From Pseudobdellovibrionaceae bacterium (GTDB lineage Bacteria; Bdellovibrionota; Bdellovibrionia; Bdellovibrionales; Bdellovibrionaceae), in assembly GCA_019637915.1 (NCBI GenBank), contig JAHBUV010000001.1, forward strand, positions 2,202,565 through 2,266,564: a stretch of 64,000 bases of DNA, in the 5' to 3' direction. Position numbers and translations under genes: made by a program. A model generated the notes under the pieces. The model had not been told where the DNA came from. It ran no database searches and saw only the letters and a list, made by a program, of their open reading frames with translations. Below, one piece after another: positions 20,013 to 44,189 of this stretch (the stretch's first letter is position 1; every line of letters begins with the position of its first letter).

Positions 20013-20035
20013 GGTACCGCCTACTTTCTGGTACC
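20013..20035 (+). repeat. REP-like repeat, left copy of the transposase unit
   Basis: A 23-bp element of form GGTACC-N11-GGTACC, with N11 being GCCTACTTTCT. The ends can pair as a hairpin. It is repeated in inverted orientation at 20823-20845 with one mismatch. It lies one base upstream of the HD gene's start codon and therefore makes up that gene's leader. Confidence 0.8.
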
Positions 20036-20173: not shown

Positions 20174-20869
20174 ATGCCGCGTAATAGAAATTTTGTGCAT
20201 CAACCAGGTGTCTTCCATGTCGGGTCTCGGACAAACAACAAGGAATGGTTTGAGATGCCACTTCCGCAAGTCTGGGAGCTTTCCACGGATCTCTTATGGT
20301 TCAGCTCGAGGGCTTTCGGTGTGGAACTTCAAGCCTTTGTCTTGATGAGCAACCATTATCATCTGCTTTTACGGACTTCCGAGGCGAACCTGCCCGCATT
20401 CATGTGCTATTTTTCACGGGAAATGAGCCGGGCAATAAACAGAGAGATGGGACGGATCAATCATATTTTCGGGGCCCGGTATTTTGCGAGCCTGGTGGAC
20501 GATTGGAAATATCACCATGCCGTCTATAAATATATTTATCGCAACCCTGTCGATGCGGGTTTGGGCAAAAAGGTTGAACTCTATCCCTATTCAACCCTTC
20601 AAGGGCTTTTGGGTTTCAGTCGTCTTCCTGTGGGGGTGGTTGATCCTCTGGAACTCGTTGAAAGACCGGAGGAAACGCTCGATTGGTTGAACTTCTCCTT
20701 CCATGAGGATCAAAGAGAGTGCATTCGGAAAGGACTGAAAGGGGCCCGCTTTGAATGGAAGACGGGACGAAGAAAACGAAATTGCTGGACGAATGACCTG
20801 GTTTTCCCGACTAACGCAGAGGGATACCAGAAAGTAGGCGGTACCTTCGGCCAGATTTTCTCATTTTGA
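20174..20869 (+). CDS. REP-associated Y1 (HUH) transposase
   Basis: The 231-residue protein is a TnpA-REP (RAYT) transposase. The HUH motif is SNHYHLLLRT and the catalytic tyrosine lies in YKYIYRNPVDAG. The N terminus MPRNRNFVHQPGVFHVGSR fits the family start, so the much longer open frame upstream is not coding. The unit is flanked by inverted REP-like repeats, as expected for RAYTs. The right repeat lies inside the coding sequence and encodes the YQKVGGT segment of the C-terminal tail. The stop codon is three bases from the flagellin promoter. Confidence 0.88.
   Translation: MPRNRNFVHQPGVFHVGSRTNNKEWFEMPLPQVWELSTDLLWFSSRAFGVELQAFVLMSNHYHLLLRTSEANLPAFMCYFSREMSRAINREMGRINHIFGARYFASLVDDWKYHHAVYKYIYRNPVDAGLGKKVELYPYSTLQGLLGFSRLPVGVVDPLELVERPEETLDWLNFSFHEDQRECIRKGLKGARFEWKTGRRKRNCWTNDLVFPTNAEGYQKVGGTFGQIFSF
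20823..20845 (-). repeat. REP-like repeat, right copy inside the transposase gene
   Basis: An inverted copy of the repeat at 20013-20035, differing at one base (GATACC instead of GGTACC at the outer end). The two copies bracket an 833-bp unit that contains only the Y1 transposase. Confidence 0.8.
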
Positions 20870-31169: not shown

Positions 31170-31197
31170 TCCAGTCGCAAGACGGCGGAACAAAAAC

Positions 31198-31233
31198 AAA
31201 AACCCCGTGGCTTCCACGGGGTTTTGTTTTTTT
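31198..31233 (+). terminator. Strong rho-independent terminator of the outer-membrane protein gene
   Basis: AACCCCGTGG and CCACGGGGTT pair around CTT, with extra A-T pairs below, followed by a T-rich run (TTTTGTTTTTTT). It is 28 bases past the stop codon. Confidence 0.9.
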
Positions 31234-42334: not shown

Positions 42335-42358
42335 TCTTCAATTTGCGGAATTGTCCAG

Positions 42359-42386
42359 GCAAAGGGCCCCTCAAGGGGCCCTTTGC
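42359..42386 (+). terminator. Terminator-like hairpin
   Basis: GCAAAGGGCCCC-TCAA-GGGGCCCTTTGC is a perfect 12-bp stem, 24 bases past the lipoprotein stop. Only a short T run follows (CTTTG). It may be a terminator for the lipoprotein transcript ahead of ggt. Confidence 0.55.
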
Positions 42387-42449
42387 CTTTGAGCGAAGCT
42401 TCATTGAAAAAGCCTTGTTCCGTGGCGGAAGCCTGGGTTCAATCAATCC

Positions 42450-44189
42450 ATGTCAAAGGCTCTCAAAAATTCGATCTGCCTGTTCTTCCTCCTCACCGCC
42501 TGCCAGAGCAAACCCCCGGGGAGCAGTTCCCTTTTTGTCGCGCAGGGCGCGACAAAAAGGGAACTGCTCCCCGCGGAGGGGCGGAGGTACGCGATTTCCA
42601 CGCAAGGGGATTTCGCGACGCGGGCGGGGCGCGAGATGTTCGAGAGCGGCGGCAATCTGATTGATGCCGCGGTCGCCGCCTCGTTCGTGATCGCGGTGGA
42701 AAGACCTCACTCCACCGGAATCGGGGGCGGGGGCTTCATGGTTTTCCGCGACGGGAAAACAGCGCGGGTCTTCGCCGTCGACTTTCGCGAGCGGGCCCCG
42801 GCGAAGGCGGCGAAGAACATGTTTCTCGGGCGTGACGGCCGGCCGGTGAAGGGTCTTTCCGAAAACGGCGTCCTGGCGGTGGCCGTGCCGGGGCTGGTGG
42901 CGGGGCTCCTCGAGATCCACGAACGATTCGGTTCATTGCCGCGGCAAAAAATCCTGAGACCGGCGATCGATCTCGCGGAAAAAGGCTTTCCGGTTTATCC
43001 GGCTTTGGCGGAAGCCCTGAAGGAACAAGGGCCCCTGCTGGCCCGCGATGCGGCGGCGAAAAAAATCTTTTTCAGCAAAAAAGGACCGGTTCTCGGAGAG
43101 GGGGAAACCCTCGTGCAGGCGGATCTGGGGAAGACCCTGCGGGCCATCGCGGCCGGCGGAAGGAAAGCCTTTGATGACGGCGCCTTCGCCCGCGCCCTGG
43201 ACTCTTTGTCGAAAAAAAGCGGCGGCGTCATCAGGGCTTCGGATTTGAAAAACTACCGCGTGCTGTGGCGCGAACCCCTGCGGGACCAATACCGCGGTTT
43301 CGAAGTTTACTCCATGCCGCCGCCGAGCTCAGGCGGTCTGCACGTGCTGCAGTTTTTGAAATTCCTCGCGAACGACCGGTTGGCGGACAAGGGTTTTCTT
43401 TCCGCCGAAAGCATCCACCTGGAGGCCTCCGCCCTGCAGTCGGCCTTCGCGGATCGCGCCACCTACCTGGGCGATCCCGATTTCGTGAACGTGCCGGTGA
43501 GGGAACTGCTGTCCGCGGATTACCTGCAAAAACGCCGCGCCGAAGTCCCGAAAGACCGCGCCCGCCGCGCCGATGAGGTGCGCGCCGGCGAATTGACGGT
43601 CCGGAGCGAATCCACCGAGACCACGCATCTGTCGATCATCGATTCCGAAGGCGGCATGGTCGCCACCACCCAGACCATCAACGGCTGGTTCGGGGCGGGC
43701 CTCGTCGTTGGCGGCACCGGCGTGGTTTTGAACAACGAGATGGATGATTTTTCCGCCCAAACCGGGGCCCAGAACATGTTCGGCGCGGTGGGGGGCGAGG
43801 CCAACTCGATCGCCCCCGGCAAAACCCCGCTCAGCAGCATGTCGCCGACCTTGCTGTTGAAAGACGGCAAGCCCCGTCTGGCGATCGGGGCTCCCGGAGG
43901 CACGCGCATCATCAGCTGCGTGGCGCAGACGATCCTGAATCACCTGGAATTCGCTTTGCCGTTGCGTGAGTCCATCGCGGCCGTGCGCCTGCATCATCAA
44001 TGGAAGCCCGATGTTCTGAGCCTGGATCCCCCGGGGCCGGGGGAGAAAACCGTTCAGGAATTGCGGCGCATGGGTTACCGGGTGGAACTCAAACCCGTTC
44101 CCTGCAACGTGATGGCGGTTTCCCAGGAAAACGGTCTGCTGAGCGCCGTTTCCGATCCCCGCGATATCGGCACCGCTTTCGCCCGTTAG
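42450..44189 (+). CDS. ggt: Gamma-glutamyltransferase, lipoprotein form
   Basis: The 579-residue proenzyme cleaves itself and transfers or hydrolyses gamma-glutamyl groups, typically from glutathione, outside the inner membrane. The N-terminal nucleophile is T391 at the start of TTHLSIID. The segments PHSTGIGGGGF, SSGGLHVLQ, PLSSMSPTL and GAPGGTRI are family marks. It has a lipobox (LTAC) instead of a plain signal peptide. Right after the lipobox, the coding sequence contains a 27-bp perfect inverted repeat, which encodes the linker before the enzyme core begins at about YAISTQGDFA. Confidence 0.92.
   Translation: MSKALKNSICLFFLLTACQSKPPGSSSLFVAQGATKRELLPAEGRRYAISTQGDFATRAGREMFESGGNLIDAAVAASFVIAVERPHSTGIGGGGFMVFRDGKTARVFAVDFRERAPAKAAKNMFLGRDGRPVKGLSENGVLAVAVPGLVAGLLEIHERFGSLPRQKILRPAIDLAEKGFPVYPALAEALKEQGPLLARDAAAKKIFFSKKGPVLGEGETLVQADLGKTLRAIAAGGRKAFDDGAFARALDSLSKKSGGVIRASDLKNYRVLWREPLRDQYRGFEVYSMPPPSSGGLHVLQFLKFLANDRLADKGFLSAESIHLEASALQSAFADRATYLGDPDFVNVPVRELLSADYLQKRRAEVPKDRARRADEVRAGELTVRSESTETTHLSIIDSEGGMVATTQTINGWFGAGLVVGGTGVVLNNEMDDFSAQTGAQNMFGAVGGEANSIAPGKTPLSSMSPTLLLKDGKPRLAIGAPGGTRIISCVAQTILNHLEFALPLRESIAAVRLHHQWKPDVLSLDPPGPGEKTVQELRRMGYRVELKPVPCNVMAVSQENGLLSAVSDPRDIGTAFAR
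42517..42573. repeat. Perfect 27-bp inverted repeat inside ggt
   Basis: Arms 42517-42543 and 42547-42573 are exact complements with a 3-base spacer (AGG). The left arm runs CGGGGAGCAGTTCCC and so on. In RNA it would form a very stable hairpin about 65 bases after the ggt start codon. The repeat stays in the ggt reading frame and encodes the post-lipobox linker. Confidence 0.9.

Follow-up and report, generated by a model that had tools for sequence, protein, structure and literature searches.

A probably mobile, RAYT-linked palindrome family in (probably) Bdellovibrionaceae, with one copy read as coding sequence in the linker of a ggt-like lipoprotein gene

Among described palindromic repeats, the REPINs and BIMEs that occur with RAYT transposases (PMC3116915, PMC8266576) consist of two inverted units forming one hairpin, are dispersed and mostly extragenic, and are tied to a RAYT that bears the same sequence at its flanks. 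For one such RAYT/REP pair, single-stranded REPs are reported to be cleaved and recombined in vitro (PMC8266576). A second described group comprises the TIR repeats of TIRYT transposases (TIRtrons; Di Nocera et al. 2013, PMC3733652), in which inverted repeats lacking the GTAG tag stand on either side of a RAYT-like HuH tyrosine transposase, and in which these repeats are moderately abundant, dispersed and often present as dimers. The same paper describes REPs near gene 3' ends, the frequent provision of stop codons by the termini of GTAG REPs, and REPs located inside genes; the latter, as well as the Rickettsia palindromic elements, are palindromic repeats read in frame at a tolerant site (PMC3733652). 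The name Bdellovibrio is absent from the main text of PMC3733652, and among titles and abstract openings of the open-licence literature, no report of REP, RAYT or IS200 elements in Bdellovibrio was found.

Here, we analysed a palindrome near the 5' end of a ggt-like gene. It lies in a 64-kb stretch of genomic DNA, referred to as the window, to which all positions refer unless another locus is named. The features of this region are as follows:

42357–42388, + strand: another perfect inverted repeat (15 bp), outside the element and upstream of ggt, probably a terminator for the gene before ggt
42450–44189, + strand: ggt-like gene for a gamma-glutamyltransferase lipoprotein of 579 aa (open reading frame; PF01019; TIGR00066)
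42492–42503, + strand: lipobox LTAC, residues 15–18, recognised by eye in the translation
42504–42587, + strand: linker Q19–R46, 28 residues between the lipobox cysteine and the conserved YAISTQG
42517–42573, no strand assigned: full copy of the palindromic element, two 27-nt arms and a 3-nt loop
42517–42543, + strand: left arm of the element
42547–42573, - strand: right arm of the element
42519–42571: core common to the other copies, 53 nt

The ggt product matches the Pfam family G_glu_transpept (PF01019) with an E-value of 3.3e-161 and scores above the cut-off of the NCBIfam model g_glut_trans (TIGR00066). A lipobox-like cysteine is present at a similar distance in ggt relatives. The two arms are complementary at 27 of 27 positions around the loop AGG, and extension to 42514–42576 gives 29 of 30 complementary positions. 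The initial annotation had placed a 27-bp perfect inverted repeat with a 3-base spacer in frame in ggt and had called it far above chance. The coordinates proved exact, and the longest perfect inverted repeat reached 9–12 nt in six order-1 Markov simulations of the window (loop up to 10), compared with 27 nt at ggt. The palindrome also tops the inverted-repeat list of the entire window, while the sole match of an Rfam search of the window was a tRNA, no family being found for the palindrome. Elsewhere in the window, positions 31192–31232 hold a terminator-like, 89% complementary 19-nt inverted repeat with a T run at its end.

Looking for more copies in the genome, as the initial annotation had advised, revealed a dispersed family. 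A 67-base query around the palindrome gave many further places, and a covariance model built from 20 aligned copies identified 25 full copies in the 3.3-Mb genome at E ≤ 1 (50 matches, each place being matched on both strands; 150 of 1875 first-look candidates scored). Single arms occur in addition to the full copies. The 53-nt core mostly reads GGT[A/C/G]ACAGTTCCCTTTTTGTCGCGC nnn GCGCGACAAAAAGGGAACTGT..ACC. Across the 20 aligned copies, pairing is found in 93.7% of 520 cells, with compensatory changes in 24 cells compared with 5.4 in shuffles and changes on both sides in 11 of 26 pairs compared with 3.9; in addition, the palindrome structure outscores all slid versions. At two column pairs (8/56 and 10/54), the ggt copy itself has matching changes in its two arms, reading GGGGAGCAG as opposed to GGGTAACAG, and both of these variants are absent from every other aligned copy. 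At another locus of this genome (L053, 2495–2590; near genome position 3172598–3172688), a single arm and a full copy that has diverged lie together, and a second diverged copy is found 0.6 kb away; a transposase unit since lost may have left this cluster behind.

Of the 25 full copies, that in ggt alone is interior to a gene; the other 24 lie outside gene interiors and, as described for REPs and REPINs, are mostly near gene 3' ends. A stop codon lies in the core or at most 20 nt away in 21 of these 24 copies and is overlapped or touched by the core in 15, while 8 of the 24 are situated between convergent genes. The gene list was compiled by hand, neighbouring genes being accepted by a Pfam match, which most of the genes flanking non-ggt copies have, or by codon composition. 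In many copies the stop codon is the TAA of GGTAACAG or the TGA of GGTGACAG. When arms facing an open reading frame of at least 100 codons were counted (automatic reading frames, some probably spurious), the gene stop coincided with the +2 codon of the element at 18 of 30 arms in this genome. The pattern differs in relatives, with 3 of 16 arms in G075, 1 of 11 in G080, 2 of 5 in G085, 1 of 5 in G056 and 0 of 16 in G021. In G021 (loci L184–L199), about 16 palindromes are built in the same way and mostly have GGTACCAG arms; here the gene often ends with a TAG that arises at the element's left edge. In our genome, two copies are located in a cell-wall gene cluster (L045, 2579–2631 and 3530–3582; genome positions 1282073 and 1283024), following murB and a Mur ligase gene, and each supplies the stop codon of that gene. 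Such provision of stop codons by an element is not new, as it has already been described for GTAG REPs (PMC3733652).

The connection to a transposase comes from relatives. A 224-aa protein (L073) of G056, a relative at the order level, matches Pfam Y1_Tnp (PF01797), and its gene is bracketed by GGTAACAGTTCCCTTTTT on the left and the reverse complement of this sequence on the right. L073, L091 and L097 score above the PF01797 cut-off and L098 just below, whereas the model NF047646 REP_Tyr_transpos gave L073 57.9 bits, below its cut-off of 80. Both the HYH motif and the conserved Tyr region are invariant in seven aligned RAYT rows, and we take these to be signatures of the IS200-like HuH tyrosine group. 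A protein search with L073 found RAYTs in 119 of 196 genomes, and the termini were tested at the 30 RAYT loci listed from this search. Among RAYTs with at least 53% identity, six of nine possess palindrome-type inverted termini on both sides (≤2 mismatches). The terminus is found on one side only, with 3 mismatches, at L094, and no such termini were found at either of the genes L095 and L096. At 45% identity or below, related termini (2–3 mismatches) were observed for 1 of 21 RAYTs, L100. In the RAYT tree, which leaves out L115 and L118 of the 30 loci as they gave no usable protein, the nine RAYTs fall in one supported clade along with L099, at which palindrome-type termini were not found.

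Termini and dispersed arms also agree genome by genome. In G021, 24 of the 26 collected dispersed arms contain GGTACCAG, as does the RAYT of this genome, while in G075, G080, G085 and G056 the 50 collected arms read GGTAACAG bar single changes, and their RAYTs likewise. In several clade RAYTs, the right terminus encodes the final residues KKGTVT. Model matches at E ≤ 0.001 occur in 20 of 66 family genomes. A clade RAYT is present in five of the seven family genomes with at least eight model matches (G021, G075, G080, G085 and G064), but none was found among the matches listed for the other two, G000 and G083, the latter having 8 model matches; G031 possesses a clade RAYT yet has only 2. A contig scan with the 19-mer GGTAACAGTTCCCTTTTTG gave 15 places, 11 of them in one Bdellovibrio MAG, while a scan with the 20-mer CAGTTCCCTTTTTGTCGCGC gave 0 places. 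The combination of dispersed copies with the same termini on RAYT genes in relatives identifies the element as a non-autonomous RAYT-linked palindrome of the REPIN or TIR-dimer type. The family is new, belongs to a known general kind of mobile palindrome, includes one coding copy and is itself probably mobile.

In the genome carrying the ggt copy, no cognate RAYT was found, and the clade profile detects just two RAYTs, both outside the clade:

20174–20869, + strand: gene for a RAYT-type transposase (231 aa counted from the ATG), outside the ggt-palindrome clade
contig C1 near 670750–671364: second RAYT (L059), outside the clade

The former has its own inverted termini, GGTACCGCCTACTTTCTGGTACC, at about 20013–20035 and 20823–20845 (by eye). 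L059 is flanked on both sides by GGTGCCAG(C/G)TCCT-type repeats, which resemble but differ from the ggt palindrome arms. A role of these two RAYTs as mobilisers is not supported, since they lie outside the clade and their termini differ as judged by eye.

Compared with the described systems, the family shares with TIRtrons a transposase of the IS200-like HuH tyrosine group, here present in relatives and flanked there by the repeat, inverted on both sides, in six of the nine clade RAYTs, together with inverted dimers dispersed in the genome as 25 full hairpins. Unlike in TIRtrons, the transposase was not found in this genome. The TIR motif GGGGWSAS, common to only some TIRs in PMC3733652, fits GGGGTCAC in 3 of the 20 aligned copies by eye but does not fit the consensus GGGTAACA. 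In contrast to GTAG REPs and REPINs, the GTAG tetranucleotide is absent, the copies mostly reading GGT[A/C/G]ACAG and the ggt copy GGGGAGCAG. The family further differs from REPINs in that it numbers about 25 copies and that its arms taken singly are not clearly palindromic, one consensus arm folding weakly with 3 pairs (RNA, -3.9 kcal/mol, z -1.0). Elements of the Rickettsia type have many in-frame copies within genes, whereas here 1 of 25 full copies is of this kind, and PMC3733652 stresses replication and repair genes, a kind of site unlike the spacer after a lipobox.

At the ggt locus, the reading frame is open through the whole element. The palindrome wholly encodes 18 of the 28 linker residues (G24–P41), 5 residues past C18. 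A lipobox was recognised in 23 of 26 homologues at the family or order level, and in these the linker comprises 23–52 residues with a median of 28, so the ggt linker is of ordinary length among its relatives. Without the element, about 10 residues would be left, below every measured relative (n = 23), so a plain insertion does not fully explain the ggt locus; the shortfall suggests a loss of native linker DNA during or after the arrival of the element. At 53 nt, moreover, the core does not consist of whole codons, and inserting it precisely and by itself would have put the downstream frame out of register. The matching 5' stretch of the homologues contains perfect repeats of at most 5–9 nt (24 of 26 homologues examined, the stretch not being located in two). 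In this comparison with relatives, which the initial annotation had called for, linkers vary and all 24 homologues are without the palindrome, ruling out that the arms are ordinary conserved ggt codons. The congener G001 gave no ggt match and, for one element neighbourhood tested as an empty site with no positive control, no DNA match; a plasmid search with the ggt gene gave no match either.

The initial annotation had offered an inserted element, a regulatory hairpin or a protein-binding palindrome as readings. The inserted element is strongly supported by the roughly 25 copies and the RAYT termini in relatives, and the protein-binding palindrome finds no support beyond a likely role as transposase substrate. 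A hairpin selected to regulate ggt, by slowing ribosomes, by serving as an RNase III target or by acting as an attenuator, is possible in view of the strong RNA fold but unlikely as the explanation of the palindrome. The RNA of the region (191 nt) folds at -97.7 kcal/mol with a z of -7.8, and each arm forms a small hairpin followed by five T; four terminator-like sites, all within the two arms, compare with 0.5 in shuffles. The ggt arm is also predicted to be more stable than the consensus arm (-6.1 versus -3.9 kcal/mol), and two arm changes are compensated. However, the same palindrome occurs at 24 other places, ggt homologues do without it, compensated arms are common across the family, and the folding of single arms is not clearly stronger than that of shuffled sequences (z -1.0 to -1.3). 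An effect of the palindrome on ggt expression would nevertheless be possible according to these folding predictions.

Hairpins with compensatory changes are reported to be generated and preserved by template switching during replication (quasipalindrome correction; PMC8794818). This process may account for the continued match between the arms, and the two both-arm variants of the ggt copy are unique among the aligned copies. That the arms arose or became perfect at the ggt site itself, rather than being carried in finished, is improbable, as the sequence is common to 24 dispersed copies and local creation cannot explain its origin. It is similarly doubtful that the ggt copy has been co-opted, having replaced the native spacer, with the hairpin or the arm hairpins with their T runs setting ggt expression and the perfection of the arms maintained jointly by selection and template switching. 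Were this true, the built-in stop of the element would suit gene ends, while its other frame would give a usable hydrophilic spacer peptide. Perfect inverted repeats can also arise artificially, but a false hairpin from a chimeric read is very hard to reconcile with 25 places that have different flanks and their own variants, with the intact reading frame of ggt and with related elements in other assemblies.

Weighing these possibilities, we consider it very probable that the ggt palindrome is a copy of a non-autonomous RAYT-linked palindrome that was spread by a RAYT and kept as a coding linker in ggt. The putative miniature element of about 53–57 bp would consist of two inverted copies of the RAYT terminal sequence (GGTAACAGTTCCCTTTTTG...) around a short loop, most likely spread as single-stranded hairpin DNA by a RAYT/TIRYT-type IS200-like transposase as present in relatives. 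Most surviving copies sit at gene ends, their own TAA or TGA often serving as the stop, and copies would persist where harm is small, namely after genes, as stop codons and once in a lipoprotein spacer. At ggt, the element would have entered the spacer after the lipid anchor, which is probably disordered and tolerant of insertion, with the frame open throughout, and would have replaced native linker DNA with a presumably near-neutral effect on the enzyme. It would then have been retained as coding sequence, now accounting for 18 of 28 linker residues, and its arms may stay matched through template switching, selection or the transposition of copies that were already matched.

With this analysis, a family of RAYT-linked palindromes whose transposase termini are clade-specific is placed in (probably) Bdellovibrionaceae, and the ggt copy clearly exemplifies a mobile palindrome that a gene tolerates as part of its coding sequence. 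Combined, the genome-by-genome match of RAYT termini and arms and the palindromes kept in a genome where no matching RAYT was found make this family a natural case for the spread and persistence of such elements and the loss of their transposase.
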